Of a DNA stretch of 49,628 nt, positions 13,760 through 49,628 are shown piece after piece. The notes below the pieces were generated by a model, which searched no databases, had not been told where the DNA came from, and saw only the letters and a list, made by a program, of their open reading frames with translations. This stretch comes from Gemmatimonadota bacterium (GTDB lineage Bacteria; Gemmatimonadota; Gemmatimonadetes; Gemmatimonadales; GWC2-71-9): the NCBI GenBank assembly GCA_003222205.1, contig QHVC01000046.1:1-49628 (forward strand). The letters run 5' to 3'. The first letter of the stretch is position 1, and every line of letters starts with the position of its first letter. A program made the translations under genes and the position numbers.

Positions 13760-15187
13760 ATGGCCAACGCCACTGAAGTTGTTTCCGCGATCCGCGAGCT
13801 GACGAATACCAAGCAGCTCGATCGCGCCGAGCTGATCGACTTGCTCAAGGACGGCCTGCACGCCGCCCTCCTCAAGCGCTACGGCCCCAACGTCCGCGCC
13901 GAGATCGCGGTGGACGAGATGAAGGGGACGATCCGCATCGTCGTGCTCAAGACGGTGGTCGAGAACGTCGAAGATCCCGGGACGCAGATCGCCCTCGAGG
14001 AGGCGCGCTTCGAGGATCCCGAGTTCCAGATCGGCGACGTGCTGGAAGAAGAGGTGCCGTTCGCGGAGTTCGGGCGCACCGCGGTGCAGGCCGCGAAGCA
14101 GCGCATCATCCAGCGCGTGCGCGAAGGCGAGCGCACCCGCATCCGCGAGGAGTTCGCCGACAAGGTCGGCGACTTGCTCATGGGCGAGGTGCAGCAGATC
14201 GAGCGGGGCAAGATCGTCGTCATGCTGCAGAAGTTCCGCGAGGCGGAGGCGATCATCCCCTACCGCGAGCAGAACCACCGCGAGCACTTCCACCAGGGCG
14301 ACACGATCCGGGCGGTCCTGAAGCGCATCGAGGAGACGCCCAAGGGCCCGCGCCTCATCCTGTCGCGCGGCGACCCGCTGTTCGTCAAGGCGCTGTTCAA
14401 GCTCGAGGTGCCGGAGATCCAGCAGGCCATCGTGGAGATCCGCGCCACGGCGCGCGAGGCGGGGAGCCGCACCAAGATCGCCGTCGCGAGCCGCGACGAC
14501 GCGATCGATCCCGTGGGCGCGTGCGTCGGGCTCAAGGGCTCCCGCGTGCAGGCGGTCGTGAACGAGCTGGGGGGCGAGCGCATCGACATCGTCCCCTGGT
14601 CGCCCGACCCGGAGCGGTTCGCGAAGCTGTCGCTCGCCCCGGCGCGCGTGGCGCGCGTCTTCTCCGACCCCGACACGCGCACCATCCAGGCGATCGTGGA
14701 CGAGGACCAGTTGTCGCTCGCCATCGGGCGCAACGGGCAAAACGTGCGCCTCGCCTCGGAGCTCACCGGCTGGAAGATCGACCTCTACTCCAGCCGCGAG
14801 TGGCTGGAGCGCGGCGGCGAGGGCCCGCTGTTCGCGCCGCTCCCGCCCGAAGAGGAGAAAGCGGTGAAGGTCGCCCTGACCGAGCTCAAAGGGCTGCCCA
14901 CCGAGCTCGTCGCCGTGTTGGAGCGCAACGGCAAGAAGACGCTCCAGGACATCCTCGACCTGGAGCGCGAGGAGGTCGCCGCGATGGCGGGGATGACCCC
15001 CGAGCTCGCCGACCGGCTGATGGCGTTCTTGAACGAGCTGGTGGACGAGGGGGGCGAGGAGGCACCGCCCGCGGCGGCTGCAGCCGTGGCGCCGGAGCCG
15101 TCGCCTGAACCCTCCCCCGAGCCCTCTGCCGAGGTCCCGGCGGAGCCGCCGCCCCCGCCGCCCGCGCCGCCGGCGGACGCCGAGTGA
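13760..15187 (+). CDS. nusA: Transcription termination/antitermination factor NusA
   Basis: NusA binds RNA polymerase and RNA to control pausing, termination and rRNA antitermination; a boxA-bearing rRNA leader lies at 49107. The 475-residue protein has the N-terminal RNAP-binding domain (1-130), S1 domain (about 135-200), KH1 and KH2 (about 205-345, with VGACVGLKGSRVQAVVNEL and LAIGRNGQNVRLAS), a helix-hairpin-helix region (about 370-425), and a low-complexity Pro/Glu/Ala tail of about 45 residues. The ATG follows the heptamer repeat and a weak, AT-rich leader. It overlaps the next gene as GTGA. Confidence 0.96.
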   Translation: MANATEVVSAIRELTNTKQLDRAELIDLLKDGLHAALLKRYGPNVRAEIAVDEMKGTIRIVVLKTVVENVEDPGTQIALEEARFEDPEFQIGDVLEEEVPFAEFGRTAVQAAKQRIIQRVREGERTRIREEFADKVGDLLMGEVQQIERGKIVVMLQKFREAEAIIPYREQNHREHFHQGDTIRAVLKRIEETPKGPRLILSRGDPLFVKALFKLEVPEIQQAIVEIRATAREAGSRTKIAVASRDDAIDPVGACVGLKGSRVQAVVNELGGERIDIVPWSPDPERFAKLSLAPARVARVFSDPDTRTIQAIVDEDQLSLAIGRNGQNVRLASELTGWKIDLYSSREWLERGGEGPLFAPLPPEEEKAVKVALTELKGLPTELVAVLERNGKKTLQDILDLEREEVAAMAGMTPELADRLMAFLNELVDEGGEEAPPAAAAAVAPEPSPEPSPEPSAEVPAEPPPPPPAPPADAE

Positions 15188-15516
15188 CGGCGCCGGACCG
15201 TCGCCTGGGGCTGTTGGGGCTCGGGCGGCGGGCCGGGACGGTGATCGTGGGCGTCGCGGGCGTGCGCGCTCGACTCCAGGCGGACGGGCTCGCCTGTGTG
15301 GTGTTGGCGGCCGACGCGGGGAAGCGCACGCGGGAGAAGGTCGAGCGGCTGGCGGTGGCGCGGGGGGTGCCGGTGCTGGTAGGGCCGGCCGCGGATCGGT
15401 TGGGCGCCGCGCTGGGGAGTCCCCCGGTGCAGGCGGTGGGCGTCAGCGATGCATCGCTCGCGCGCGGATTGATGACGGCATTCGGAGGAGTAAGTGGGCA
15501 CGACGCGGATTCATGA
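15184..15516 (+). CDS. L7Ae/L30e-family RNA-binding protein (YlxQ-like)
   Basis: A 110-residue protein of the L7Ae/L30e/S12e/Gadd45 fold, usually found between nusA and infB. Features are LGLLGLGRRAGTVIVG, the conserved LAADAGKRTREKVERLA segment and the final VGVSDASLARGL motif, all typical of YlxQ-type kink-turn binders. The GTG overlaps the nusA stop. The last 23 nt overlap infB. The target RNA is unknown. Confidence 0.85.
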   Translation: MTAPDRRLGLLGLGRRAGTVIVGVAGVRARLQADGLACVVLAADAGKRTREKVERLAVARGVPVLVGPAADRLGAALGSPPVQAVGVSDASLARGLMTAFGGVSGHDADS

Positions 15517-18118
15517 TTTGGCGGCGGAGTTCGGGATCTCCAGCGAGCAGCTCATGGGCATGCTCAAGGAGCTCGACATCTTCGTGCGCAGCCACCTGAC
15601 CCCCCTCAAGGAGGAGCAGGTGTCGCTGATGCGCGCGCGCTGGGAGCGCGAGAAGCGGCGCCTCAAGGAGCCGGCGGCCCCCACGACGAAGCGGCGCCGG
15701 GCGGTGAAGGTGGAGGTCGTCCCAGTGGTCGAAGAGGCGCGGCCCAAGCGGCGGCGGCGCACCGCGGCCGAAGTGGCGGCGGCGGAAGCTGAGGCGCAGG
15801 CCGAAGCGGCCCGTCTCGCGGCGGAGGCCGATCTCAAGGCGCAGCAGGTGCTCGAGGCCGAGCGCGTCAAAGAAGAGGAAAAGGCGGCGCCGAGCCTGGA
15901 GGAGCGGGCGGCGGCGCTGTTCAAGGACCTCGCCCCGGCGGCGCCGGTCGAATCGCCGTTCGCGGAAAGCGCTGCCGAGCCGGTGCACGCGTCGGCGCCG
16001 TCGAGTCCTCTGCTGTCCGCGGCCCCGCGGCCCGTGATCCCGACCCCCGTGCGCCCGCGTCCGGTGGCGAGCGCCGCGCCGACCGGCAACGTGCCACCGC
16101 GGCCCGTCGCGTCGGCGGCCCCGGGCGCCATTCCGCTCGAGGAGCGGCGCCGCGACAAGAAGCGCAAGAAAGGCAAGAAGGCGGTCGACCAGGAGGTCAT
16201 CGCCCAGAACATCTCCCGCACGCTCACCTCCATGAAGGGCGCGCCCGCCCGCAAGTCGGGCACCCGCCGCGAGGAAGGCCCGACGTTCCGGGAGGTGCAG
16301 GAAGAGCGGCGCCGTGAGGAGCAGGAACGGGAGAAGACGCGCGTGCGCGTGACGGAGTTCATCACCGTCAGCGAGCTTGCCAACATCCTCAAGGTCCCCC
16401 CCACTCAGCTCGTGACGTTCGCGTTCAAGGAGCTGGGCCAGATGGTGACCATCAACCAGCGGCTCGACTTCGACATGATCGAGCTGATCGCGTCGGCGTT
16501 CGGCTTCCAGGCGGTGCGCGAGCAGGACTACGCCGTCGCCGAGCCGCCGGCCGAGACGGACAAGGCCGAGGACCTGCAGCCGCGGCCGCCCGTCGTCACC
16601 GTGATGGGCCACGTGGACCACGGCAAGACGTCGCTCCTCGACTACGTGCGCAAGACCGACGTCGCGGCGGGCGAGGCCGGGGGCATCACCCAGCACATCG
16701 GCGCGTACCAGGTGACCCGCAAGGACGGGCGGGCGATCACGTTCCTCGACACCCCGGGCCACGAGGCGTTCACCGCGATGCGGGCGCGCGGGGCCCAGGT
16801 GACCGACATCGTCGTGCTGGTCGTCGCGGCGGATGACGCGATCATGCCGCAGACGATCGAAGCGATCTCGCACGCCAAGAACGCGGGCGTGCCGCTCGTC
16901 GTCGCGATCAACAAGATCGATCTCCCCAGCGCCAACCCGCAGAAGGTCAAACAGGACCTGCTCGCCCACGGCGTCGTGCTGGAGGAGTTCGGCGGCACCA
17001 CGCTGTCGACGGCGATCTCGGCCAAGAAAGGCACCAACGTCGAAGAGCTGCTCGACCAGATCCTCCTGCAGGCGGAGCTGCTCGACCTGAAGGCGAACCC
17101 GGCGCGCCGCGCGCAGGGGACCGTGCTGGAAGCGACGCTCGACCCGGGCAAGGGGGCGGTGGCCACGATCCTCGTGCGCACCGGCACCCTGCACGTCGGC
17201 GACGCGTTCATTTGCGGCCGGTTCTATGGTCGCGTGCGCGCGATGTACGACGAGCGCGGCAAGCCCGTCGACGCGGCGCCGCCGTCCGCGCCGGTCCAGG
17301 TGCTCGGCTTCGAGGGCGTCCCCGAGGCTGGCGATTCGTTCCTGGGCATGGCCGACACCAACGAGGCCCGCGACATCGCCCAGAAGCGCCAGCGGCTCGA
17401 GCGCGAGGCGACGCTGCGGCGCAGCGGGCGCGCCAAGACGCTCGAAGACTTCATGGCCGAGCGCGTCGAAGGCGGCGTCGCCGTGCTGCGGCTCATCATC
17501 AAGGCGGACCAGGGCGGCCCGGCCGAGGCGCTGGCCGACGCGCTGGCGCAGCTCTCCACGAGCGAGGTCAAGGTCGAGGTCGTGCACCGCGGCGTGGGCG
17601 CGATCACCGACTCGGACGTCCTGCTGGCCAAGGCCTCGGGCGCGATCATCATCGGGTTCCACGTCCGGCCCGATTCCAACGCGCGCGCCTCCGCCGACCG
17701 CGAGCACGTCGAGATCCGCACCTACCGGATCATCTACGAGGCGGTCGAGGAGGTGCGGTCCGCGATGGCCGGCCTGCTCGCCCCCGAAAAGAAGGAAGTG
17801 GTCCTGGGCGAGGCCGAGATCCGGCAGACGTTCAAGATCGCGAAGGTGGGCACGATCGCGGGGTGCTACGTGCGCAGCGGCGTGATCCCGCGGACGGCCC
17901 GCGTCCGCATCATCCGCGACGGCGTCGAGGTGTACGAGGGGACGATCGCTTCGCTCAAGCGGTTCAAGGACGACGCCCGCGAGGTGCGGGAGGGCTTCGA
18001 GTGCGGCATCGGCATCGAGAACTTCAACGACGTCAAGGTCGGAGACCTGATCGAGGCGTATCGCATCGAGGAGGTCGCGCGCTCGCTCGAGACGGGGAGC
18101 GGCGCCAAGGGGGCGTGA
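15494..18118 (+). CDS. infB: Translation initiation factor IF-2
   Basis: IF-2 is the GTPase that brings initiator tRNA to the 30S subunit and promotes subunit joining. The 874-residue protein has an IF2_N domain at the start (TRIHDLAAEFGISSEQLMGM) and a long charged Ala/Glu/Pro linker to about residue 290. A second IF2_N-like module (ITVSELANILKVPPTQLV) comes next, then the G domain with G1 GHVDHGKT from residue 372, G3 DTPGHE and G4 NKID, and domains II to IV. The GTG start lies in the end of the ylxQ-like gene. A downstream alternative start for a short IF-2 form was not evident. Confidence 0.96.
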   Translation: MGTTRIHDLAAEFGISSEQLMGMLKELDIFVRSHLTPLKEEQVSLMRARWEREKRRLKEPAAPTTKRRRAVKVEVVPVVEEARPKRRRRTAAEVAAAEAEAQAEAARLAAEADLKAQQVLEAERVKEEEKAAPSLEERAAALFKDLAPAAPVESPFAESAAEPVHASAPSSPLLSAAPRPVIPTPVRPRPVASAAPTGNVPPRPVASAAPGAIPLEERRRDKKRKKGKKAVDQEVIAQNISRTLTSMKGAPARKSGTRREEGPTFREVQEERRREEQEREKTRVRVTEFITVSELANILKVPPTQLVTFAFKELGQMVTINQRLDFDMIELIASAFGFQAVREQDYAVAEPPAETDKAEDLQPRPPVVTVMGHVDHGKTSLLDYVRKTDVAAGEAGGITQHIGAYQVTRKDGRAITFLDTPGHEAFTAMRARGAQVTDIVVLVVAADDAIMPQTIEAISHAKNAGVPLVVAINKIDLPSANPQKVKQDLLAHGVVLEEFGGTTLSTAISAKKGTNVEELLDQILLQAELLDLKANPARRAQGTVLEATLDPGKGAVATILVRTGTLHVGDAFICGRFYGRVRAMYDERGKPVDAAPPSAPVQVLGFEGVPEAGDSFLGMADTNEARDIAQKRQRLEREATLRRSGRAKTLEDFMAERVEGGVAVLRLIIKADQGGPAEALADALAQLSTSEVKVEVVHRGVGAITDSDVLLAKASGAIIIGFHVRPDSNARASADREHVEIRTYRIIYEAVEEVRSAMAGLLAPEKKEVVLGEAEIRQTFKIAKVGTIAGCYVRSGVIPRTARVRIIRDGVEVYEGTIASLKRFKDDAREVREGFECGIGIENFNDVKVGDLIEAYRIEEVARSLETGSGAKGA

Positions 18119-18404: not shown

Positions 18405-18761
18405 ATGCGACGCACGAGTTTCCGGCCCGAGCGCGTCGGCGAGCTGATCCGCCAGACGGTGGCGGCGTTCCTCACGGGCGACGTGCGCGACCCGCGCATC
18501 GGCTTCGTGACGGTCACCGGGGTGGAGGTGTCCGCGGATCTCTCCCACGCGGCCGTGCGCGTGAGCGTCATGGGCAGCGAAGAGGAAAAGGCGCGTTCGC
18601 TCGAGGGGCTGGCCAGCGCCGCCGGGTTCCTTCGCGCCCAGCTGGCCCGGCAGCTGACGCTGCGCACCACGCCGGAGCTGCGGTTCCAGCTCGACCGCGG
18701 GCTCGAGCACGCGCAGCAGATCGACCGGGTCCTGAAGGAGCTGAAGGAGCCCGACGCCTGA
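18405..18761 (+). CDS. rbfA: 30S ribosome-binding factor RbfA
   Basis: RbfA binds the 30S subunit during late 16S maturation and cold adaptation. The 118-residue KH-like protein has the typical RVGELIRQTVAAFL helix, DPRIGFVTVTGVEVSADLSHA segment (split by strands) and a final LRFQLDRGLEHAQQIDRVL motif. It starts 1 nt after DUF503 ends and forms a biogenesis block with rimP, infB and truB. Confidence 0.95.
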   Translation: MRRTSFRPERVGELIRQTVAAFLTGDVRDPRIGFVTVTGVEVSADLSHAAVRVSVMGSEEEKARSLEGLASAAGFLRAQLARQLTLRTTPELRFQLDRGLEHAQQIDRVLKELKEPDA

Positions 18762-18769
18762 CCGGCGGC

Positions 18770-19609
18770 GTGGCCCTGGTCGCGAAGCCGGCGGGCCCGA
18801 CCTCGCACGATGTCGTGGATCTCGTGCGGCGCGCCCTCGGCACCAGGCGCGTGGGGCACCTGGGGACGCTCGACCCGTTCGCCGCTGGCCTGCTGGTGGT
18901 GGTCGTGGGGCGCGCGACGCGCTTGGCGCCCTACGCCGTCGGCTGGGACAAGGCCTACGAGGGCGTGATCCGGCTCGGGGCGCGCACCGCGACCGACGAC
19001 CCCACCGGCGCCGTGGTGGAGACGTCGGACGTCTGGCGATCCCTCGACCGCGACGCCGTGGCGGCGGCGCTGGGGCGGTTTCGCGGCATCGTGCGGCAGC
19101 GGCCGCCGGATCACTCGGCGGTGAAGGTGCAGGGGGAGCGCGCCTACCGGCGCGCCCGCCGTGGCGAACCCGTGGAGCTGCCGGAGCGCGAAGTGGAATT
19201 CCGCGAGCTGGAGCTGGTCGCGTTCGAGCCGCCGGATGCCCGATTCCGCGCCGTTGTGAGCGGCGGCACGTACCTGCGCAGCCTGGCCCGCGACGTCGGT
19301 GATGCCCTCGGGTGCGGTGCCCACCTCGCGATGCTGCAGCGGACCCGCGTGGGCCCGTTCCGCGTCGAGCAGGCCGTGGCGCCCGAGGCGGTGACGGTCG
19401 AGGGGCTGGTGGACGAGGCGGCGCTCGTCGCCGACCTGCCGCGGCGGGACCTCGACGACGCCGGTCGCGTGGCGGCGGTGCACGGGCGTCCGGTGCCGGC
19501 GGGGCAGGGGGCAGGGGAAAGGGTGGCCCTGTTCGCTGAAGGCCATCTCATCGCCGTGGCGGAGCGGGTCGGCGACCTGCTCAAGCCGCGCGTGGTGGTG
19601 GCGGAATGA
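18770..19609 (+). CDS. truB: tRNA pseudouridine(55) synthase TruB
   Basis: TruB isomerises U55 in the T-loop of most tRNAs. The 279-residue product has KPAGPTSHDVVD, the catalytic Asp35 in GHLGTLDPFAAGLL, the HSAVKVQGERAY loop and the SGGTYLRSLARDVG motif. The C-terminal extension (from about residue 205) is PUA-like. It holds the Gly/Gln-rich segment GQGAGE, encoded by a G-rich heptamer run. GTG at 18770 is 8 nt after rbfA, and the stop overlaps ribF as ATGA. Confidence 0.94.
   Translation: MALVAKPAGPTSHDVVDLVRRALGTRRVGHLGTLDPFAAGLLVVVVGRATRLAPYAVGWDKAYEGVIRLGARTATDDPTGAVVETSDVWRSLDRDAVAAALGRFRGIVRQRPPDHSAVKVQGERAYRRARRGEPVELPEREVEFRELELVAFEPPDARFRAVVSGGTYLRSLARDVGDALGCGAHLAMLQRTRVGPFRVEQAVAPEAVTVEGLVDEAALVADLPRRDLDDAGRVAAVHGRPVPAGQGAGERVALFAEGHLIAVAERVGDLLKPRVVVAE
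19501..19521. repeat. G-rich heptamer run inside truB
   Basis: GGGGCAG, GGGGCAG and GGGAAAG are consecutive 7-nt units. They encode a flexible loop (AGQGAGE) in the C-terminal domain of TruB. It is the weakest type of repeat locus here and could be local G-bias. Confidence 0.45.
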
Positions 19610-20532
19610 ACGGGGGGGGGGCGGGGGGGGCGGTGGTGACGGTCGGCACCTTCGACGGCGTGCACCGCGGCCACCAGGCGGTGCTGGCGGAGGTCGCCAA
19701 GCGTGCGCGGACGCAGGGGCTCGCGAGCCTGGTCGTGACCTTCGAGCCGCATCCGCTCGAAGTGGTGAACCCGACGGCGGCGCCGAAGCTGCTCACGCTG
19801 CCGGAGGAGAAGTGGGGGCTGCTCGCAGCGCTGGGCGTGAACCGGGTCGAGGTGCTCCCGTTCACGCCCGAGCTGGCGCAGCTGGGCCCCGAAGAATTCG
19901 TGCGGGACGTGCTGCGCGTGCGGTTCGCGATGCGGGAGCTGGTCCTCGGATACGACCACGGCTTCGGGCGCGGGCGCAGCGGCGACGTGGAGGCGGTGCG
20001 GCGACTCGGCGCAGCGGACGGCTTCGCCGTGGACGTCGTGGACGCGGTGCGCGAGGACGGCCAGCCGATTTCCTCGACGCTGATCCGCGCCGCGGTGGCG
20101 CACGGCGAGCTGGAACTCGCCCGGCGCTGGTTGGGGCGGCCGTACAACTGTGCGGGGACGGTCGAGCGGGGAGCGGGCCGGGGCCGGATGATCGGCGTCC
20201 CGACGGCGAACCTCGCGCCGCCCGATCCGCGCAAGCTGTTGCCGCCCGACGGTGTCTACGCCGTGTGGGTAGAACTGCCAGGGAAGGAGGAAGGGGGAAG
20301 AGTGGCGCGGTACGGGGGCATGATGAATCAGGGTCCGCGGCCGACGTTCGGGGTCGCGGCGCGAGGGCTGGAGATTCACCTGTTCGACTTTGCCGGGGAG
20401 CTGCACGGCGAACGGCTGAAGGTGGAGTGGGTGCGCCGGCTGCGGGAAGTGCGGACATTCCCTTCGCGGGAAGCGCTGGTCGCGCAGCTCGAGCGCGACC
20501 GCGCGGCGGCGCTGGCGATCCTCAACGGCTAG
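19606..20532 (+). CDS. ribF: Bifunctional riboflavin kinase / FAD synthetase
   Basis: RibF phosphorylates riboflavin to FMN and adenylates it to FAD. The 308-residue protein has the nucleotidyltransferase domain (TVGTFDGVHRGHQAVL, then ISSTLIRAAVAHG) and the kinase domain (YNCAGTVERGAGRGRMIGVPTANL in two parts, GPRPTFG, LEIHLFDF). The first codons contain G10, one C and G8, encoding NGGGAGGA. An in-frame GTG at 19633 would start at VTVGTFDG, the usual family N-terminus, so the G-tract may be leader rather than coding. A G/A heptamer run at 20281 encodes a kinase-domain loop. The ATG overlaps the truB stop. Confidence 0.93.
   Translation: MNGGGAGGAVVTVGTFDGVHRGHQAVLAEVAKRARTQGLASLVVTFEPHPLEVVNPTAAPKLLTLPEEKWGLLAALGVNRVEVLPFTPELAQLGPEEFVRDVLRVRFAMRELVLGYDHGFGRGRSGDVEAVRRLGAADGFAVDVVDAVREDGQPISSTLIRAAVAHGELELARRWLGRPYNCAGTVERGAGRGRMIGVPTANLAPPDPRKLLPPDGVYAVWVELPGKEEGGRVARYGGMMNQGPRPTFGVAARGLEIHLFDFAGELHGERLKVEWVRRLREVRTFPSREALVAQLERDRAAALAILNG
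19612..19630. repeat. Poly-G tract (G10-C-G8) at the ribF start
   Basis: Ten G, one C and eight G follow ATG-AAC directly. Such tracts slip in replication and in sequencing. A one-base change would shift the annotated ribF frame, but not translation from the in-frame GTG at 19633. Confidence 0.8.
20281..20301. repeat. G/A-rich heptamer run inside ribF
   Basis: GGGAAGG, AGGAAGG and GGGAAGA are three 7-nt units in register. They encode GKEEGGR, which extends a loop between strands of the flavokinase domain. Moderate support only. Confidence 0.45.
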
Positions 20533-20538
20533 GGAGCT

Positions 20539-22158
20539 ATGAGCACAATTCGAGGGCGGTTGATTACCATCGTGGTGCTGCTGGCCTTGAGCGCGTGGGC
20601 GCTCGTGCCCAAGAATCGGACCGAGCGGGTGCCGGACGCCGTCACCGGTCGCATGAAGGACACCACGGTGCGTCGCGTGCCGATTAACCTCGGTCTGGAT
20701 CTGCGCGGCGGCGTGCACCTGGCGCTGGAAGTCGATCAGTCGAAAGGGCCGGTGCCCGACTGCGCCGACGCGATCCAGCGCGCCGAGCGGGTCGTGCGCA
20801 CCCGTATCGACGAGTTCGGCACCACCGAGCCCGTCGTCCAGATCGTGGGCCGCTGCCGCCTGATCGTGGAGCTGCCGGGCGAGAAGGACGTGAACCGCGC
20901 CAAGGGGATCGTGCAGCGCACGGCGTTTCTCGAGTTCCGCATCACGGACATGAATAACGTGTTCCTCGAAGCCATCCCGGCGATCGACGTGGCGTTGCGG
21001 GCCGCGGGTGTGCGCGGCCCCGCCGCCGGCCCGTCCAACGCAGTCGCCCGCCTACTCGGCCAGGACACGACGAAGGCGGCCGGCCGAGCCGACACCTCGA
21101 ACCAGCGGGGCGCGCTCGAGTCGTTTCTCTCCCAGGGTACCCTGGCTGGCGAGTACTTGGTCCGGCCGGAGCAATTCGAGATCGTTGACAGCCTGATCAA
21201 CCGCCCCGAGGTGAAGCGGTTGATCCCGCGAGGCGTCGCTCTGTTTTGGGGTACGCAGCTGGTCCCGCAGCGTGATCGCAGCTACAACGCGCTGTACGCG
21301 GTCGAGGACCGGCCGATCATCACCGGCGAGTGTCTCACCAAAGCCCAGCCGCGGCGCGATCCGCTCACCAATCAATCCGTCGTGGCGTTCACGTTGACGC
21401 ACCGCTGCGGGCGCATCTTCGGGGACGCCACCGCCCGGCACGTCGGCCACTACATGGCGATCATCCTCGACGGGCGCGTGCAGGGGCAGCCGCCGGTCAT
21501 CAAATCGGAGATCCGCAACGAAGGGCAGATCGAGCTCGGCTCGCGCCCGTTCGCCGACGCGCAGGACCTGGCGCTGGTGCTGCGCGCTGGCGCGCTCCCG
21601 GCGCCGCTCACGATCGTCGAAGAGCGCACCATCAGCGCTTCGCTCGGCGAAGACTCAATTCACGCTGGAGTCCGGGCGGGGGTCGTGGGGATCATCCTCG
21701 TCGTGCTGATCATGGTGGGCTACTACCGCCTCTCCGGTGCGCTCGCGGTCGCGGCGCTGGCGCTGTACACGCTGTTCACCTTCGGCGGGCTCGCCGCCTT
21801 CGGCTTCACGCTCACGATGCCGGGGCTCGCGGGGTTCGTGCTCTCGGTCGGGATCGCGGTGGACGCCAACGTGCTGATCTTCGAGCGCATCCGCGAGGAG
21901 CTGCAGCACGGCAAGCTCGTCCGGACCGCGGTGGACGAGGGCTTCAAGCACGCCATGAGCGCCATCATCGACTCCAACGTCTCCACGGCGCTCACCGCGT
22001 TCATCCTGTACCTCGTCGGCACCGGGCCGGTGCAGGGCTTCGCCATCACGCTGATCATCGGCATCGCGGCCTCGATGGTGACGGCCGTTTACGTCGTGCG
22101 CACCTTCTACATGGTCTGGCTGCAGCGCCGGCCGGACCTCGTCACCCTGAGCGTCTGA
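20539..22158 (+). CDS. secD: Protein translocase subunit SecD
   Basis: SecD, with SecF, uses the proton gradient to pull preproteins through SecYEG at the periplasmic side. The 539-residue protein has an N-terminal transmembrane helix, the D1 motif LGLDLRGGVHLALEV, a large periplasmic domain with an insertion near residues 155-200, and GSRPFADAQDLALVLRAGALP. Five C-terminal helices follow with GFVLSVGIAVDANVLIFERI. Length is within the family range. It begins 6 nt after ribF with a GGAG sequence upstream, and ends in a TGATG overlap with secF. Confidence 0.96.
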   Translation: MSTIRGRLITIVVLLALSAWALVPKNRTERVPDAVTGRMKDTTVRRVPINLGLDLRGGVHLALEVDQSKGPVPDCADAIQRAERVVRTRIDEFGTTEPVVQIVGRCRLIVELPGEKDVNRAKGIVQRTAFLEFRITDMNNVFLEAIPAIDVALRAAGVRGPAAGPSNAVARLLGQDTTKAAGRADTSNQRGALESFLSQGTLAGEYLVRPEQFEIVDSLINRPEVKRLIPRGVALFWGTQLVPQRDRSYNALYAVEDRPIITGECLTKAQPRRDPLTNQSVVAFTLTHRCGRIFGDATARHVGHYMAIILDGRVQGQPPVIKSEIRNEGQIELGSRPFADAQDLALVLRAGALPAPLTIVEERTISASLGEDSIHAGVRAGVVGIILVVLIMVGYYRLSGALAVAALALYTLFTFGGLAAFGFTLTMPGLAGFVLSVGIAVDANVLIFERIREELQHGKLVRTAVDEGFKHAMSAIIDSNVSTALTAFILYLVGTGPVQGFAITLIIGIAASMVTAVYVVRTFYMVWLQRRPDLVTLSV

Positions 22159-23159
22159 TGCTGCGACTCTTCGCCAACGCGAACTACGACTTCATCAAGT
22201 GGCGCCGCTTCGCCTACGGGCTCACGGCGATCATGATCGTCCCCGGGCTCGTGATGCTGCTCGCCACTCGCCTCAACTACAGTATCGAGTTCACCGGGGG
22301 GACGCTGCTCCAGATCGCCACCCCCAAGGCCAAGCCCGTCACGACGGCCGACCTGCGCGCAGCACTGGACGCCGGGGGCCTGCACGGCGCCGAGATTCAA
22401 CAGTACGGCGCCGATACCGCGTTCGTGATCCGGGCGCGACTCGGCACGCAGGCGCAGGCGCCCGGAGGCGGAACGGAGGAGACCGCGCAGGCGGTGGCGC
22501 GCGCGCTCGACGCCCGGCTGGGGGCGGGCCAGTACACGATCGTCCACCACGAGGCAGTCGGACCCAAGGTGGGGAAGGAGCTGCAGGGCAAGGCGTTCCT
22601 CGCCATCTTCTTCTCCTTCATCGTCACACTGGTGTACCTCGCGATCCGCTTCGAGTGGCGCTTCGGCCTCGCGGCGGTGCTGGCGACGTTCCACGACATC
22701 CTCACTACGGTCGCGTTCATCAAGTACTTGAACCTCGAGGTGAGCCTCGTCGTGGTCGGCGCCGTGCTCACGATCGTGGGCTATTCGCTCAACGACACCA
22801 TCATCATCTTCGACCGCGTGCGCGAGAACCTGCGCAAGTACCGGCGGCAGAACCTCTACGAAATCCTGAACCTCTCGATCAACGAAACGCTGCCGCGCTC
22901 GATCCTGACGCACGGGACCACGATGGCCACGACGCTGGCGCTGGTGTTCCTCGCCGGCGAGGTGATCCGGCCGTTCGCCCTCGTGATGACGTTCGGCATC
23001 TTCACGGGCACCTTCTCGTCGATCTACATCGCGGCGCCGGTGCTGATGCTCATCGAGAAGCGGTGGCCGGGGCAGGACGCGCGCGGCGCCCGGGCGTTCA
23101 CCGGACGCGCCCCGGAGCCGGCGGTGCCGGCGATCCCGCGGGCGCCAGCCAAGGTCTGA
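22158..23159 (+). CDS. secF: Protein translocase subunit SecF
   Basis: Partner of SecD in the inner membrane. The 333-residue protein has the first helix near residues 20-37 and the SIEFTGGTLLQI motif at the periplasmic entry. A periplasmic domain spans to about residue 135, then five helices with LVYLAIRFEWRFGLAAV, TFHDILTTVAF and GYSLNDTIIIFDRVREN. The C-terminal tail after the last helix is Pro/Ala/Arg-rich. The start codon shares a base with the secD stop. Confidence 0.96.
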   Translation: MLRLFANANYDFIKWRRFAYGLTAIMIVPGLVMLLATRLNYSIEFTGGTLLQIATPKAKPVTTADLRAALDAGGLHGAEIQQYGADTAFVIRARLGTQAQAPGGGTEETAQAVARALDARLGAGQYTIVHHEAVGPKVGKELQGKAFLAIFFSFIVTLVYLAIRFEWRFGLAAVLATFHDILTTVAFIKYLNLEVSLVVVGAVLTIVGYSLNDTIIIFDRVRENLRKYRRQNLYEILNLSINETLPRSILTHGTTMATTLALVFLAGEVIRPFALVMTFGIFTGTFSSIYIAAPVLMLIEKRWPGQDARGARAFTGRAPEPAVPAIPRAPAKV

Positions 23160-23160
23160 C

Positions 23161-23958
23161 GTGCTCGTCGACGCCCACTGCCACCTGGGGGACGGGGCGT
23201 TCGACGCAGACCGCGACGCTGCGCTCGCGCGCGCGAAGGCGGCTGGCGTGGGTCATGTGGTCGTAATCGGGGAGTCCGTCGCAGGCAGCGCCCGCGCGCT
23301 CGAGCTGGCCCGGGAGGCGCCGGGACTGTCGGCTACCGCCGGCGTGCATCCCCACGAGGCGAAAACCTGGTCGCGGGAGGCCGAGGGACGCGTGCGCGCG
23401 CTGTGCCGGGAGGAGGCCGTCGTCGCCGTGGGGGAGACGGGCCTCGACTACCACTATGATCACTCACCTCGGGACGCCCAGCGGCACGCCTTCGAAGCCC
23501 AGCTCGCCCTCGCGGTGGAGCTCGCCAAGCCGGTCGTCGTCCACGCGCGCGAGGCGGACGCAGACGTCGCCGCGCTGCTGCGGGCCTGGGGGGCTAGGAT
23601 TCCCGCGATCATCCTCCACTCGTTCAGCGGCAGTCGGACCGTGTTCGACGCCGGGATGGAGCTGGGCGCCTACTTCTCGTTTAGTGGAATGATCACCTTC
23701 AAGAGCTGGAACCCCGTGGTCCGCCCGTCCGCCTGTCCGCCCGACCGCCTCCTCGTCGAGACCGACGCGCCGTTCCTCGCGCCCGTGCCGCACCGCGGCC
23801 GGCGCAACGAGCCGGCCTACGTCCGCGAGGTCGCGGCGGCGCTGGCGCAGGCGCTCGGCGACTCTCCCGAAGCCATCGGACAACTGACGACTGAAAACGC
23901 TCAGCGGGCGTTCGGCGCCCGCCTCTCGTCCGCGCTTGAGGAGCACCCCGTCACGTGA
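23161..23958 (+). CDS. tatD: TatD-family metal-dependent DNase
   Basis: TatD hydrolases act as 3'-5' exonucleases and in D-Tyr-tRNA quality control; the fold is a TIM-barrel amidohydrolase with two metals. The 265-residue protein shows VDAHCHLGDGAFD (HxH), AGVHPHEA, AVGETGLDYHYDHSP, VHAREADAD, LHSFSG and LLVETDAPFLAPVPHRG. The loop before the last motif reads NPVVRPSACPPD and is encoded by an octamer repeat at 23718. Related proteins have an ordinary helix there. GTG is the start, and the stop overlaps fhs as GTGA. Confidence 0.9.
   Translation: MLVDAHCHLGDGAFDADRDAALARAKAAGVGHVVVIGESVAGSARALELAREAPGLSATAGVHPHEAKTWSREAEGRVRALCREEAVVAVGETGLDYHYDHSPRDAQRHAFEAQLALAVELAKPVVVHAREADADVAALLRAWGARIPAIILHSFSGSRTVFDAGMELGAYFSFSGMITFKSWNPVVRPSACPPDRLLVETDAPFLAPVPHRGRRNEPAYVREVAAALAQALGDSPEAIGQLTTENAQRAFGARLSSALEEHPVT
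23718..23749. repeat. Octanucleotide tandem repeat inside tatD
   Basis: Four units in exact 8-nt register: GGTCCGCC, CGTCCGCC, TGTCCGCC and CGACCGCC. They encode the VRPSACPPD stretch of TatD, between the barrel strand ending MITFKSWNP and the LLVETD metal motif. Confidence 0.8.
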
Positions 23959-25637
23959 CCAGCGCCCTCAAGGTCCCGACCGACATCGAGATCGCGCAGG
24001 GTGCGAAACTGCGCCCCATCGCCGACGTTGCCGCCGATCTGGGCCTGTCCGACGACGATTTCGAGCTGTACGGGAAGTACAAGGCGAAGATCCGGCTGTC
24101 CGTGTTGGAGCGCCGCCCGCCGAAGGGGCGTCTCGTCCTCGTCACCGGCATCAACCCCACGCCGGCGGGAGAGGGCAAGTCGACGGTGACGGTGGGGCTG
24201 ACGCAGGCCCTGAAGCGCCTCGGCAAGAACGCGATCCTCTGTATCCGGGAGCCGAGCCTCGGGCCGGTGTTCGGCGTTAAGGGCGGCGCGGCGGGCGGGG
24301 GGTACTCGCAGGTGGTGCCGATGGAGGACATCAACCTCCATTTCACCGGCGACTTCCACGCGATCGCGAGCGCGCATAACCTGCTGTCGGCGATGCTCGA
24401 TGCGCACCTGCACCACGGCAATGCGCTGGGCCTGGACGTGCGCCGCATCATCTGGCCGCGCACCATCGACATGAACGACCGCGCCCTGCGCAACGTCATC
24501 GTCGGGCTGGGGGGGCTGAACGCCGGGCCGACGCGCGAGGAGCGGTACGTCATCATCCCGGGCTCCGAAGTGATGGCGATCCTGGCCCTGGCCTCCGGGC
24601 TCGAGGATCTGGAGGCCCGACTCGGCCGGATCATCGTGGGGCTCGCCGCCGACAAGAAACCGGTGCGCGCCGGTGATCTGAAGGCGCAGGGCGCCATGAC
24701 GCTGCTCCTCAAGGACGCGCTGAACCCGAACCTCGTGCAGACGCTGGAGGGGGGACCGGCGCTCGTGCACGGGGGGCCCTTCGGCAACATCGCGCACGGG
24801 TGCAACTCGGTCGCCGCGACCCGCATGGGTCTCGCGCTTGCAGACCTGGTGGTGACGGAATCGGGCTTCGGCGCGGACCTGGGCGCCGAGAAGTTCTTCG
24901 ACATCAAGTGCCGCATGGCGGGCTTGAAGCCGGAGGCTGCGATCATCGTGGTCACGGTGCGGGCGTTGAAGATGCACGGCGGGGTGAAGAAGGAAGACCT
25001 CGGCAAAGCGGACGTCGAGGCGGTCAAGCGCGGGGCCGTGAACCTCCAGCGCCACATCCGCAACGTCAAGAAGTTCGGGCTGCCGTGTCTCGTGGCGGTC
25101 AATCACTTCCTCAACGACACGGATGCCGAAGTCGACGCCGTGACCGCCGCGTGCGCGGCGGAGGCAGCCCAGGCCGTGCGCAGCGACGTGTGGGAGAAAG
25201 GCGGGGAGGGGGGGCTCGCGCTCGCCGAAGCGCTGCTCCGCCTGCTCGAAACCTCGAAGGCGGCGTTCCGGCTGCTGTACGACGAGAAGCGCGCGGTGAG
25301 GGAGAAGATCGAGACGATCGCCAAAGAGATCTACGGCGCCGAGGGCGTGCAGTTCTCGCATGCGGCGGAGCGGGCGCTGGAGCTCCTGCCCAAACTCGGC
25401 CTGGGCGAGACGCCGGTGTGCATGGCCAAGACCCAGTACTCCTTCTCCGACGATCCCACGAAGCTCGGCGCGCCGAGCGGGTACACCCTCCACGTCCGGG
25501 ACATCCTGCCCGCGGCCGGCGCGGGGTTCGTCGTGGCGCTGGCGGGCGATATCCTGACGATGCCGGGCCTCGGCAAGAGTCCGGCGGCGGAGCGGATGCG
25601 CATCCATCCGGACGGCACGATCGAGGGGTTGTTCTAA
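23955..25637 (+). CDS. fhs: Formate--tetrahydrofolate ligase
   Basis: FTHFS makes 10-formyl-tetrahydrofolate from formate, ATP and THF, feeding purine and one-carbon metabolism. The 560-residue length matches the family. Motifs include the phosphate loop TGINPTPAGEGKSTVTVGL (split across one loop), REPSLGPVFGVKGGAAGGGY, the substrate segment HGGPFGNIAHGCNS, and the C-terminal KTQYSFSDDP region followed by GFVVALAGDILTMPGLGKSP. GTG overlaps tatD and the stop overlaps ridA as TAATG. No other folate enzyme lies next to it. Confidence 0.96.
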   Translation: MTSALKVPTDIEIAQGAKLRPIADVAADLGLSDDDFELYGKYKAKIRLSVLERRPPKGRLVLVTGINPTPAGEGKSTVTVGLTQALKRLGKNAILCIREPSLGPVFGVKGGAAGGGYSQVVPMEDINLHFTGDFHAIASAHNLLSAMLDAHLHHGNALGLDVRRIIWPRTIDMNDRALRNVIVGLGGLNAGPTREERYVIIPGSEVMAILALASGLEDLEARLGRIIVGLAADKKPVRAGDLKAQGAMTLLLKDALNPNLVQTLEGGPALVHGGPFGNIAHGCNSVAATRMGLALADLVVTESGFGADLGAEKFFDIKCRMAGLKPEAAIIVVTVRALKMHGGVKKEDLGKADVEAVKRGAVNLQRHIRNVKKFGLPCLVAVNHFLNDTDAEVDAVTAACAAEAAQAVRSDVWEKGGEGGLALAEALLRLLETSKAAFRLLYDEKRAVREKIETIAKEIYGAEGVQFSHAAERALELLPKLGLGETPVCMAKTQYSFSDDPTKLGAPSGYTLHVRDILPAAGAGFVVALAGDILTMPGLGKSPAAERMRIHPDGTIEGLF

Positions 25638-26032
25638 TGAAGAAGCCGAAAGGCGTCGGAGTGGTCGCGACTGACCAGGCCCCCAAAGCCATCGGGCCCT
25701 ACAGCCAGGCCGTCGAGGTGAACGGGGTGATCTACACGGCGGGGCAGGTCGCCCTCGATCCCAAGAATGGGGGCCTGGTCGGCACGACGGCGGCCGAGCA
25801 GACCGAGCAGGTCCTCAAGAACCTCGCGGCCGTGCTGGGCGCGGCGGGGGCGAGCCTGCAGGACGTCGTGAAGACGACCGTGTACTTGGCCGACATGGGC
25901 GACTTCGCCGCGATGAACGAGGTGTACGCGAAGTATTTCGGGAAGCACAAGCCGGCGCGCTCGACGGTGCAGGCGGCCCGGCTGCCCCGGGACGCGCGGG
26001 TGGAGATCGACGCGATCGCGGTGAAGGCGTAG
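25637..26032 (+). CDS. ridA: RidA-family enamine/imine deaminase
   Basis: RidA (YjgF/YER057c/UK114) trimers hydrolyse reactive 2-aminoacrylate and related imines. The 131-residue protein shows the family core: APKAIGPYSQAVEVNG, YTAGQVALDP, TEQVLKNLAAVLGAAG, TTVYLADMGDFAAMNEVY and the C-terminal PARSTVQAARLPRDARVEID with the substrate-binding Arg. The start shares a base with the fhs stop. The stop codon is only 3 nt from the 5' end of selC, so the tRNA must be cut from the same transcript or start inside ridA. Confidence 0.93.
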   Translation: MKKPKGVGVVATDQAPKAIGPYSQAVEVNGVIYTAGQVALDPKNGGLVGTTAAEQTEQVLKNLAAVLGAAGASLQDVVKTTVYLADMGDFAAMNEVYAKYFGKHKPARSTVQAARLPRDARVEIDAIAVKA

Positions 26033-26035
26033 CGC

Positions 26036-26129
26036 GGGGGCGGATCGGGCCTGGTGGCCTGACTGGTCTTCAAAACCAGCTGGGGTTCGAATGAGCCTCG
26101 GTAGGTTCGATTCCTACACGCTCCCGCCA
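26036..26129 (+). tRNA. selC: tRNA-Sec (anticodon TCA)
   Basis: The sequence folds as a bacterial selenocysteine tRNA. An acceptor of 7-8 pairs (GGGGGCG with CGCTCCC) is followed by GCCA with CCA encoded. The D-stem is long, 6-7 pairs with a 4-nt loop (26045-26062). The anticodon arm is CTGGT/ACCAG with loop CTTCAAA and anticodon TCA at 26070-26072. There is a long variable arm (GGGGTTC, loop GAAT, GAGCCTC) and a T-arm GTAGG/CCTAC. The long D-stem with tiny loop separates it from tRNA-Ser or an opal suppressor. It implies selA, selB, selD and at least one selenoprotein elsewhere. Hairpins at 26136-26160 follow but lack a T-run. Confidence 0.94.
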
Positions 26130-26208
26130 CGCCCTGCCGCAAATGCGGCGTGCGGTGCCGCAAAATCGCCCTATCTCTGCGCCTCCCGCGGCCCCATCAT
26201 AGAAGGAT

Positions 26209-28851
26209 ATGCGCCTCCCGCCGCTCTCCATCCGGGTCAAGCTGCCGCTGCTCATCTGCGCCTTGGTGCTCGCGGTGGCCGGCTCGTTCACGTGGGCGGC
26301 CTATCGCGGTGTGAGCGAGGCGGTCGTGGTCACGGCGAGCGACCGCCTGGGGAGCGTCACCACCCAGATCGCCGGCCTGCTGCAAACCTCCGCGACCCAG
26401 CTCCTCGCCAACGCGCGCGCCGTGGCCGACAGCCCGGCGGTCCGGGCGTATCTGCGGGCCCCCGCGCCCCGGATGCGCGCGGCGGCCCTCGCGGCGATGC
26501 GGCCGGTGGGCCCAGCGGCTCAGCAGATCGCCGACGTCGAGCTCGTCAGCACCGGTGGCGCGCGCCTGCTCTCGCTCACCGACAGCGCGTCCCACGGCAC
26601 CCCTGCCGTCAACCCCGAGATGGTGCTGGCCGGCAGCCGGTCGGACTCCGGGGTGATCCGGCCGTTCGAGATCGTGCGCGATTCGCTGCGATACGCCGTG
26701 ACGGCACCGGTCAAGGAGGGCGGCCGCATCCTGGGGTATCTCGTCCAGTGGCGCCACCTGACGAGCTCGGCGCGCGGGCGAGGGCAGCTCAATCAATTGA
26801 TCGGCCCCGGCGCGAGGCTCTATGTGACGAACTCGTCGGGGGACCTGTGGACGGACCTGGCGGCTCGCGTCCCCCCGCCATCGCCGCCCCTCGATCTGCA
26901 GCGCGCCGCCGCCGGCGTGGTTCGGTACGAGCGTCCGGGGCTGGGCGAAGTACTCGCGACCGCGCGGGCGGTGCGCGGGGCCCCGTGGGCCGTCGTGGTC
27001 GAGTTTCCGCGCAAGGTGGTCTTGGCCCCGGCACGACTGTTCCTGCGCAGCCAGGTGTTCAGAATCGGAGCCGTGCTGCTCGTCGGCCTCCTCGCCGCGT
27101 GGGGGCTGAGCGGCACCATTACCCCCCGGCTGCGGCGGCTCACGGACGCCGCCGAAGCGGTCGCCGCTGGTGACTACTCGCGGCAGGTGCGCGTGGAGCG
27201 GCGCGACGAGCTGGGGCGGCTGGCCGGAGCGTTCAACGTCATGGCGCACAACGTCCAGGAGTCGCAACAGCACCTCGAAGCCCAGGTGCGCGAGCTGCAG
27301 GCCACGCGCTCGCGGCTCGAGCAGCTCGTCAACGCCAGCGACGCCATGATCTACGCCAGCCGCGTCGCTGGAGAGGCCACCGTTCCCGTCTACGTGAGCG
27401 AGAACATCACCCGCCTCACCGGCTACGAAGTGCAGGAGGTGCTGCGCCCGGATTGGTTGCGCGACATCGTGCACCCGGAGGACCGGGAGCGGATCCGTGG
27501 GGAGTTAGGGGAACAGTTCGCCACGGGGCAGTTCACCATCGAGTACCGCTTCCGGCATAAGGACGGCTCGTACCGCTGGATCCTGGACGAGGGCCGCGTG
27601 CGCCACGACGCCACGGGGCACGCCGTGGAGGTGGTGGGCGCCTGGATCGACATCACCGAGCGCAAGCGGCTCGAGACCCAGCTGCGCCAGGCCCAGAAGA
27701 TGGAAGCGATCGGGCAGCTCGCTGGCGGCGTCGCCCACGATTTCAACAACGTGCTCACCGCCATCGCCGGCAACGCCGAACTGCTCCAGGAGGGCTTCGC
27801 CGACGGCGACCCCAAACGGGAGACGGTCGAAGAGATCCGCACGGCGGCGAGCCGCGCCGAATCGCTCACGCGCCAGCTGCTGGCGTTCAGCCGGCAGCAG
27901 ATCATGCAGCCGAAAGTCCTGAAGCTGAACCGCGTCGTCGCGGGGATGGAGAAAATGTTGCGGCGCCTCATCGGCGAGGACATCGACTTGGTGTGCGTGC
28001 TCCCGAATGACGTGGGGCAGGTCGTTGCGGACCCGAGCCAGATCGAGCAGGTGATTTTGAACCTCGCCGTCAATGCCCGCGACGCGATGCCCACGGGCGG
28101 CAAACTCACCATCGAGACGGGGAACGCGGAGTTCGACGCCATCTACGCGCGCGCGCACCCGCCTGCGGTCCCGGGCCGGTTCGTGATGATCGCCGTCAGC
28201 GACTCCGGGTCGGGCATGTCGCCGGAAGTGCAGGCGCGCGTGTTCGAGCCGTTCTTCACCACCAAGGCGCCGGGCAAAGGGACGGGCCTGGGGCTCGCCA
28301 CCGTGTACGGCATTGTGAAACAGAGCGGCGGGTTCATCTGGGTCTACAGCGAGCCGGGACAGGGGACGACCTTCAAAATCTACCTGGGGCGGGCGGCGGA
28401 CGACCAGCGCCCTGAGACGGTGTCCACGGCCGTCGCCGAGGTGCGCGGCGGGGACGAAGTGATTCTCCTCGTCGAGGACGAGGCCGCGGTGCGGCGCGTC
28501 GCGCTCCACGCCTTGCAGCGCTACGGGTACACGGTGCTCGAGGCGGCACTGCCGTCCGAGGCGTTGACGATTTGTCGGGAGCACACCGGCAAGATCGATC
28601 TGGTCGTGACGGATGTCGTCATGCCGGGCATGAGCGGCCCCGACCTCGCCCAGCAGCTCCTGGCCCTGCGCCCGGCGCTCAAAGTGCTGTTGAGCTCCGG
28701 CTACCCCGGTGAAGCCATCGCCCACCGCGGGGAGCTGTTCTCCGGCTTAGCATTCCTCCCGAAGCCGTTCACTCCGACCGGGCTGGCGCGCAAGGTGCGC
28801 GAAGTGCTCGATGCGCCCGCGCCGCAGGCGCACCGTCCCCCCGCGCATTAA
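26209..28851 (+). CDS. Hybrid sensor histidine kinase with HAMP, PAS and receiver domains
   Basis: An 880-residue membrane sensor. Transmembrane helix 1 is near residues 8-30. A long extracytoplasmic domain with Cache-like features runs to about 283, helix 2 lies near 285-305, HAMP at about 306-358 (RRLTDAAEAVAAGDYSRQVRV), and PAS/PAC at about 370-490 (VSENITRLTGYE, YRFRHKDGSYRWILDEG). Next are HisKA with His510 in GGVAHDFNNVL, the ATPase domain (NLAVNARDAMP, DSGSGM, GKGTGLGLATVYGI) and a C-terminal receiver with phosphoacceptor Asp802 (VVTDVVMPGMSG). AGAAGG lies very close to the ATG. Ligand and output partner are unknown; no transcription factor is nearby. Confidence 0.92.
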   Translation: MRLPPLSIRVKLPLLICALVLAVAGSFTWAAYRGVSEAVVVTASDRLGSVTTQIAGLLQTSATQLLANARAVADSPAVRAYLRAPAPRMRAAALAAMRPVGPAAQQIADVELVSTGGARLLSLTDSASHGTPAVNPEMVLAGSRSDSGVIRPFEIVRDSLRYAVTAPVKEGGRILGYLVQWRHLTSSARGRGQLNQLIGPGARLYVTNSSGDLWTDLAARVPPPSPPLDLQRAAAGVVRYERPGLGEVLATARAVRGAPWAVVVEFPRKVVLAPARLFLRSQVFRIGAVLLVGLLAAWGLSGTITPRLRRLTDAAEAVAAGDYSRQVRVERRDELGRLAGAFNVMAHNVQESQQHLEAQVRELQATRSRLEQLVNASDAMIYASRVAGEATVPVYVSENITRLTGYEVQEVLRPDWLRDIVHPEDRERIRGELGEQFATGQFTIEYRFRHKDGSYRWILDEGRVRHDATGHAVEVVGAWIDITERKRLETQLRQAQKMEAIGQLAGGVAHDFNNVLTAIAGNAELLQEGFADGDPKRETVEEIRTAASRAESLTRQLLAFSRQQIMQPKVLKLNRVVAGMEKMLRRLIGEDIDLVCVLPNDVGQVVADPSQIEQVILNLAVNARDAMPTGGKLTIETGNAEFDAIYARAHPPAVPGRFVMIAVSDSGSGMSPEVQARVFEPFFTTKAPGKGTGLGLATVYGIVKQSGGFIWVYSEPGQGTTFKIYLGRAADDQRPETVSTAVAEVRGGDEVILLVEDEAAVRRVALHALQRYGYTVLEAALPSEALTICREHTGKIDLVVTDVVMPGMSGPDLAQQLLALRPALKVLLSSGYPGEAIAHRGELFSGLAFLPKPFTPTGLARKVREVLDAPAPQAHRPPAH

Positions 28852-28878: not shown

Positions 28879-29229
28879 ATGGCCGGCATACGATGGGCGC
28901 GCCTGCAGGTGGACGCCAATATCCGGCTCCGCCGCGGCGCCTGGTACAAGGTCGTGGGAGAGGAGGGCTTCGACCTCATCATCGAGGTGAACAGGAAGCC
29001 CGTGCGCGCGTTGCGTGCTCTCTTCGAAGTCCGCGACCGTCCGGTCCCCCGCTGGACGGTCGTGACATCCCCGCCGGGGAAGAAGACGCCGATGAGCGAG
29101 CGCTACGCCGTGTGCCCGAGCTGCAACGAGCGCGCGAACCTCAAGGGGAAGCCGAAGCGGATGACGTGCCCGCACTGCCGCTCCGAATTCGATATCGCCT
29201 GGGACGAGCCCTACCTGCGACCGCTCTGA
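28879..29229 (+). CDS. Small protein with C-terminal zinc ribbon
   Basis: A 116-residue protein not matched to a named family. The first part is strand-rich and basic (IRWARLQVDANIRLRRG, GEEGFDLIIEV). The end carries two CxxC knuckles, CPSCNER and CPHCRSEFD, spaced to bind one zinc, followed by an acidic tail. ATG at 28879 is preferred because GAGAGGG lies 5 nt before it; a GTG at 28873 is possible. It could bind RNA or protein. It is followed at once by the lipid-kinase-like gene. Confidence 0.7.
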   Translation: MAGIRWARLQVDANIRLRRGAWYKVVGEEGFDLIIEVNRKPVRALRALFEVRDRPVPRWTVVTSPPGKKTPMSERYAVCPSCNERANLKGKPKRMTCPHCRSEFDIAWDEPYLRPL

Positions 29230-29240
29230 TCCATGCCCTG

Positions 29241-30122
29241 GTGATCTGCAACCCGGCCGCGGGCCGCGGCCTGGCCCGGCGGGAGGGACCCCGGGTCGCG
29301 CGCGCGTTTCGCAAGCAGGGATGGACGGTGGACCTCGTCGAGACCAAGGGCCCGCTCCACGCCGGCCGCCTCGCCGCCGAGGCGGCTGGGCGTGGCGTCG
29401 AGCGGCTCATCGCGCTCGGCGGTGACGGCACCGTTCATGAGGTCGCCAACGGATTACTGCGCGCCCGGAGCGGCGCCGCACTCGCGGTGGTGCCGGTCGG
29501 CTCGGGGAACGACTTCGCCAAGCTCACCGGCATCTATCCGTACCGGCGCGACATCGAGCGGGCCGTGGCGAAGATCGCCACGGCCGCGCCCCGCCGGTTC
29601 GATGCGGGGCGGGTCCTGGGCGAGTACTTCGTCAACACCATGGGCCTGGGGTTCGGCCCGGCGGTGGTCCGCACCCGCAACGCGATGCCGTCGTTGAAGG
29701 GTTTTCTCTCCTACCTGGTCCCGGTGCTGCGCAGCTTCTGGAGCTACCGCCCGATTCATCTGGAGGTGATCGCTGCTGAGCGCCGGGAGACCGGGAACAT
29801 GATGATGCTCGAGGTGTGCAACGGGACGACGGCGGGCGGCGACTACCGCTTCGCGCCGGACGCCGATCCCGGCGACGGCCGCCTCGACGTTTGCCTCATC
29901 CGCGCCGTCTCGCTGCCGCGGTTTCTCCTCGCGATCCCGCGGGTCATGCGCGGCACCCATGGGACGATGCGCGAGGTGGTCCAGTTCCGCACGCGGTCGC
30001 TGACGATCCGCGGCGACGCCGCCCTGCTCCTGCACCTCGACGGCGAGCTGCGGGCGCCAGGCGCGGCCGAGTGCACGGTAACCGTGGAGCGAGCATGCCT
30101 GAACGTGTTGGTGGCCAAGTGA
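29241..30122 (+). CDS. Diacylglycerol/lipid kinase family protein (YegS/DgkB-like)
   Basis: A DAGK-catalytic family protein of 293 residues that should phosphorylate a lipid or sphingoid alcohol with ATP. Motifs are ICNPAAGRG, LIALGGDGTVHEVANGLL, VPVGSGNDFAKLTG, NTMGLGFGPAVV, CNGTTAGGDYRFAPDADPGD and a final LHLDGEL. GTG at 29241 is the only common start, but it removes the first beta strand residues (IHAL), which are encoded upstream. A CTG at 29226 that overlaps the zinc-ribbon stop would restore them. The 3' end overlaps the next gene as GTGA. Confidence 0.86.
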   Translation: MICNPAAGRGLARREGPRVARAFRKQGWTVDLVETKGPLHAGRLAAEAAGRGVERLIALGGDGTVHEVANGLLRARSGAALAVVPVGSGNDFAKLTGIYPYRRDIERAVAKIATAAPRRFDAGRVLGEYFVNTMGLGFGPAVVRTRNAMPSLKGFLSYLVPVLRSFWSYRPIHLEVIAAERRETGNMMMLEVCNGTTAGGDYRFAPDADPGDGRLDVCLIRAVSLPRFLLAIPRVMRGTHGTMREVVQFRTRSLTIRGDAALLLHLDGELRAPGAAECTVTVERACLNVLVAK

Positions 30123-43857: not shown

Positions 43858-43861
43858 CTTC

Positions 43862-49254: not shown

Positions 49255-49628
<374 letters not shown>

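Follow-up and report, generated by a model that had tools for sequence, protein, structure and literature searches.

A selenocysteine tRNA gene directly behind ridA in a Gemmatimonadales genome and its probable release from a translation-secretion operon transcript

The window analysed here, a stretch of 49,628 nt from a Gemmatimonadales metagenome-assembled genome (2.97 Mb in 217 contigs, 98.6% complete), contains a genuine bacterial selenocysteine tRNA (tRNA-Sec) gene immediately downstream from ridA (Table 1). We consider it probable, with a likelihood of about 0.85, that this tRNA belongs to a complete selenocysteine (Sec) system, which reads UGA in two peroxiredoxin genes as well as in selD and fdhA, and that it shares a transcript with the nusA-...-fhs-ridA operon, from whose mRNA it is cut.

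Table 1. Features of the tRNA-Sec gene and of the neighbouring protein genes in the window.
Feature	Position	Strand	Basis
tRNA-Sec (selC), 94 nt, encoded CCA	26036..26129	+	ARAGORN; Rfam RF01852; only match in the genome over the cut-off
Acceptor stem, 5' strand, 8 nt; 26043 G opposite 26118 A	26036..26043	+	Parse
D-arm: 6-bp stem CGGGCC/GGCCTG, 4-nt loop TGGT (26052-26055)	26046..26061	+	Parse; Rfam alignment
Anticodon TCA (UCA, reads UGA)	26070..26072	+	ARAGORN; sequence
Long variable arm, 6-bp stem	26080..26100	+	Sequence; Rfam alignment
3' acceptor strand (26118-26125), discriminator G73 (26126), CCA (26127-26129)	26118..26129	+	Sequence; parse
nusA	13760..15187	+	PF08529 and PF13184
infB (IF-2)	15494..18118	+	PF11987 and PF00009
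rbfA	18405..18761	+	PF02033, 114.7 bits
truB	18770..19609	+	TIGR00431, 217 bits
ribF	19606..20532	+	NF004160, 308.6 bits
secD	20539..22158	+	TIGR01129, 399 bits
secF	22158..23159	+	PF02355, 213 bits
tatD family nuclease	23161..23958	+	TIGR00010, 241.6 bits
fhs, formate-tetrahydrofolate ligase; TAA overlaps ridA ATG	23955..25637	+	NF010030, 863 bits
ridA, Rid family enamine/imine deaminase	25637..26032	+	TIGR00004, 177.8 bits (cut-off 106)
Hybrid histidine kinase, own ATG, 79 nt after CCA	26209..28851	+	Top hit a CckA-type model (457 bits, under its own cut-off)

The ARAGORN call, a tRNA-SeC, covers exactly 26036-26129 of the forward strand, with the anticodon tca at tRNA position 35 (26070-26072), and the Rfam model RF01852 matched the same interval over its full length (model positions 1-91, no truncation) with 80.1 bits (E value 5.4e-15; gathering cut-off 47). 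The second-best match in a genome-wide search of the assembly reached 46.3 bits, under the cut-off, and the gene in the window is therefore the only tRNA-Sec found in this genome. In our parse of the sequence, the acceptor strands GGGGGCGG and ACGCTCCC form seven standard pairs and a G.A as the eighth, the linker between the acceptor stem and the D-stem is AT, and the anticodon stem (CTGGT/ACCAG) and the 5-bp T-stem (GTAGG/CCTAC) are complete. Every element of the fold described in the earlier note (a long D-stem with a 4-nt loop, a long variable arm, a TCA anticodon and a GCCA end) is present, and the covariance-model score that it asked for lies above the cut-off. The gene resembles canonical tRNA-Sec (selC, RF01852; Clostridia, E. 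coli) in its anticodon (UCA), D-arm (6-bp stem, 4-nt loop), long variable arm, acceptor strands of 8 nt, T-stem of 5 bp, G73 and CCA, but differs in its innermost acceptor pair, which is G.A, as in several Clostridia. The variable arm is 3-4 nt shorter than that of most relatives (94 vs 97-98 nt for the whole tRNA).

The genome also carries selA (537 bits, cut-off 268), selB (347 bits with neighbouring pieces, cut-off 242) and selD (391 bits, cut-off 125; one in-frame TGA), all of them above the curated cut-offs. With this complete set beside a tRNA scoring 80.1 bits, the genome presents the reverse of the finding (a low tRNA-Sec score and no selA, selB or selD) that the earlier note had named as speaking against its interpretation. 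Sec decoding through SelA, SelB and SelD is textbook knowledge for this gene set, from which we infer that the organism decodes UGA as Sec.

Family searches, which provide a minimum list of selenoproteins, revealed four genes with an in-frame UGA at a catalytic position. The SelD sequence reads MTIRLTAFSHGAGUACK, with U at the usual Sec/Cys position of this protein. A TAT-type formate dehydrogenase alpha chain, FdhA (QARIUHSSSVPG), is encoded by an incomplete gene on a 3.3-kb contig, and comparison with solved structures aligned its UGA residue with the active-site Sec of the Desulfovibrio Sec-FdhA. The AhpC-TSA search identified two further genes, one for a PrxQ-like protein (TPGUNRQ), the other for a peroxiredoxin that carries a signal peptide (TKGUTVQ), and alignments to solved structures placed the UGA of both at the position of the peroxidatic cysteine. 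A HesB-type selenoprotein was sought in the genome and gave no match; in the window, inspection by eye of the TGA codons flanked on either side by long open frames revealed no known Sec motif. The sel genes and the UGA genes with Sec at catalytic positions support the proposal that UGA is read as Sec. The selenoprotein families most often met in bacteria include formate dehydrogenase, SelD and Prx (PMC5029168). Sec occupies here the usual catalytic position of known Sec-SelD, FdnG/FdhA and Sec-peroxiredoxin proteins, from which the proteins of this genome differ in nothing notable except the signal peptide of one peroxiredoxin. In this genome selD, fdhA and both peroxiredoxin genes will be truncated by any gene caller that treats UGA as a stop, so gene calls that are too short, as foreseen from the tRNA, are to be expected.

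The expectation that such genes would be followed by SECIS-like hairpins held in part: the UGA genes exist, and hairpins were found in fdhA and selD, whereas in the two peroxiredoxin genes the folding downstream from the UGA was weak (z -0.2 and -0.7). The fdhA hairpin (GUCCCC-GGUCU-GGGGAC) lies 12 nt past the UGA, and that of selD (GGCGCAG-GUC-CUGCGUC) lies about 26 nt past it, with a z score of -3.4 for a 42-nt stretch. Both have a GGUC-type loop, like that of the E. coli fdhF SECIS. The selD hairpin is kept in relatives of the same family and of family f3. When all relatives were aligned without gaps, RNAalifold yielded no convincing consensus for the selD SECIS, owing to the divergence of the sister family in this region.

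We then considered 101 genomes of the order, counting tRNA-Sec at more than 60 bits and selA and selD over their cut-offs. The tRNA was present in 74 genomes, selA in 75 and selD in 85; all three occurred together in 68 and none in 14 (Fisher p ~1e-10 to 1e-11), and the genomes with one part missing were largely incomplete assemblies. The tRNA-Sec, selA and selD therefore come and go together across the order. Two genomes already possessing a tRNA-Sec gave a second tRNA-Sec-like match, of 63 bits (G102:C40:284-378, L299) and 60 bits (G145:C8:417202-417292, L300), the latter with no ARAGORN call. In Gemmatirosa kalamazoonensis (Gemmatimonadaceae), a member of the sister family (f2), selA, selD and tRNA-Sec are located on a 1.04-Mb plasmid (NZ_CP007130.1, ~455800-460223, L331).

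Family searches confirmed that a translation-secretion operon lies ahead of the tRNA in the window: the genes nusA-infB-rbfA-truB-ribF-secD-secF-tatD-fhs-ridA are all on the forward strand and mostly touch or overlap. The ridA TAG at 26030-26032 is separated from the tRNA by 3 nt (cgc), as had been noted earlier. The accompanying statement that the tRNA stands at the very end of the operon is correct as to its place behind ridA, but its terminal place is doubtful and cannot be asserted, because the terminator scan found no terminator-like site between the tRNA and the histidine kinase, which is on the same strand 79 nt further on. Downstream genes also adjoin the tRNA closely in relatives. In the window, the kinase gene is followed by a lipid kinase gene, a DUF5683-like gene and murI. 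An ORF at 26091-27173, starting inside the tRNA, does not share the frame of the histidine kinase and was taken as spurious.

The neighbourhood was compared at 72 of these tRNA-Sec loci, as read by ARAGORN. In the family of the window, ridA preceded the tRNA in the same orientation at a distance of 60 nt or less in 33 of 46 loci and of up to 2 kb in 39 of 46; the spacing was often 0-20 nt, with secD-secF-tatD-fhs upstream, and this arrangement extended over many genera. The nearest named FTHFS records belong to Gemmatimonadales MAGs (identity 70% and 66%), two of which (L023 and L022) carry tRNA-Sec further along the fhs contig, one of them directly behind ridA. In about five same-family loci an intact tRNA is 2-3.5 kb away from ridA or has other surroundings, so the linkage is not essential. 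In the sister family, ridA lies ~1-1.4 kb upstream in 19 of 21 loci, with selD, often containing a UGA, between the two (e.g. L146, L147, L161, L198 and L202-L204), in some cases ~5 nt before the tRNA. The interposition of selD ties this locus to selenium. The most distant family (f9; L288 and L284) has a compact selA-selB-selD-tRNA-Sec operon. Fragmentation of an ancestral sel operon, first to selD with the tRNA and later to the tRNA alone behind ridA, is one plausible history.

The gene could in principle be a look-alike without a role in Sec decoding, since an extended acceptor, D-stem and variable arm also occur in allo-tRNAs and selC*-type tRNAs (PMC7609411), and a tRNA-Sec decaying in a genome that had lost Sec decoding, or a selC*-tRNA-Cys, might have the same appearance. 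The G.A at the eighth acceptor position, in place of a standard pair, is the feature that fits such an origin. However, this pair was present in 62 of the 73 parsed tRNA-Secs of the order, in nearly all of those parsed elsewhere in the phylum, and in the tRNA-Sec of Clostridium, Caloramator, Lutispora, Tissierellales, Sellimonas and Scopulibacillus, and many bacterial tRNA-Secs have the same 8+5 positions with G.A as the eighth pair; we therefore regard it as an ordinary variant. The pair had also been entertained as a hallmark of the phylum, an idea dropped in view of the same Clostridium, Caloramator, Lutispora, Tissierellales, Sellimonas and Scopulibacillus sequences. The UCA anticodon, G73, the full-length RF01852 match, the three sel genes and the four UGA genes likewise argue against a look-alike, which we judge very improbable. 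A chance fold or an error of the tRNA finder is less credible still, to the point of being negligible. The Secmarker survey counted about 20 ARAGORN tRNA-Sec calls per genome, mostly false (PMC5330540), but here an independent covariance model gave 80 bits against 46 for the best other match in the genome, and the tRNA is conserved at the same place throughout an order.

The main rival to excision from the operon mRNA is a private promoter. According to this explanation, a functional tRNA-Sec would be transcribed alone from a promoter in or just behind ridA, and its closeness to ridA would reflect a compact layout. The selC gene of E. coli is monocistronic, and the loci with an intact tRNA at a distance of 2-3.5 kb from ridA, or with other neighbours, imply that it can be expressed without ridA. 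However, a scan for the sigma-70 consensus, in a GC-rich phylum that may use other promoters, found no promoter-like site in 24500-27500, and the spacing of 0-20 nt to ridA, or of ~5 nt to selD, recurs over many genera and is typical of operon members. We thus consider separate transcription unlikely. The tRNA in the window has the features of an operon member (same strand, 3-nt gap, conserved neighbour ridA), and its co-transcription with the ridA operon is likely on the basis of gene arrangement. The case for its excision from a long mRNA comes from spacing and conservation, and is strengthened by the short gap to ridA across many genera.

If the tRNA is transcribed together with the nusA-...-fhs-ridA operon, RNase P would cleave at its 5' end, 3 nt past the ridA stop codon, and on its 3' side the transcript would be cut and trimmed where the encoded CCA lies. 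SerRS would charge the released tRNA with serine, which SelA would turn into Sec on the tRNA with selenophosphate from SelD. SelB would then deliver the Sec-tRNA to UGA codons preceding a SECIS hairpin, and the UGA in selD, fdhA and the two peroxiredoxin genes would be read as Sec.

A further feature concerns the gene following the tRNA in relatives. An ORF for a DUF5683-like secreted protein lies directly behind tRNA-Sec in 46 relatives (the name comes from one sub-threshold Pfam hit of the window's homologue, 25.2 bits vs a cut-off of 26.7). Its frame is open across the tRNA in 41 of the 46, against 61 of 92 for the other two frames, and all three tRNA frames are used, genome by genome. In ~19 of the 46 there is no ATG, GTG or TTG from the 3' end of the tRNA to the hydrophobic core of the signal peptide, as delimited by a simple hydropathy rule in related genomes (among them L198, L202, L203, L204, L217, L188, L183, L193, L271, L274 and L281). 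Start codons other than these three could explain part of the missing starts. In one relative (L199, G047), the tRNA follows the ridA TAG at 0 nt, and the last base of its encoded CCA is also the A of the ATG that starts the next ORF. We tentatively raise the possibility, doubtful as it is, that the tRNA-Sec gene of relatives doubles as the translation-start region of the DUF5683-like gene; we treat this overlap as a lead rather than a result, because the rule is our own and the genomes are related. If it is true, tRNA excision would destroy the start of the neighbouring mRNA, making tRNA release and translation of the neighbour mutually exclusive. The window itself differs, in that the histidine kinase with its own ATG, and not the DUF5683-like gene, comes next after the tRNA. 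A literature search on tRNA genes overlapping start codons of bacterial protein genes found nothing specific.

The presence of tRNA-Sec in selA/selB operons is known from the Secmarker survey (PMC5330540). As in these selABC-type operons, the tRNA in the window is tight behind protein genes of the same strand, and the selA-selB-selD-tRNA-Sec operon of the most distant family resembles them; the window differs in that its partners are not sel genes but a translation, secretion and one-carbon operon ending in ridA. In Alphaproteobacteria, selC is nested in the selB ORF (Mukai 2021, PMC8124441). There too the tRNA is part of a protein-coding transcript, as we infer here for the window, and its release would break the mRNA. 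However, in our relatives the overlap is apparently with the 5' end of the next gene and not with the 3' end of selB. The upstream ORF does not read through the tRNA in the window, where the ridA stop codon precedes the tRNA by 3 nt, so this selC is not nested. The kind of tRNA is therefore known, and its attachment to ridA appears to be new in detail, being undescribed in the literature searched, which covers the field in part. The string 'Gemmatimon' is absent from the main text of three bacterial selenium surveys and reviews (PMC5029168, PMC5330540 and PMC9312934) and of a 2026 review (PMC13188914). The Sec system is carried by this genome and by most of the ~100 relatives examined, and the conserved position of the tRNA, which follows ridA or, in the sister family, selD, offers a natural test case for tRNA excision from a protein mRNA, and for whether such excision ties selenium use to a housekeeping operon.

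Some minor observations were made elsewhere in the window. The longest murI ORF (30325-31425) starts about 100 codons too early, and its beginning shares sequence, in a different frame, with the DUF5683-like gene ending at 30628. The start of the lipid-kinase ORF (28893-30122) also seems to be about 110 codons too early, with homology beginning near residue 112. Tandem genes for tRNA-Pro(tgg) and tRNA-Arg(tct) are found at 43784-43937, and the window ends within a 16S rRNA gene, of which it contains the first 376 nt (49253-49628).
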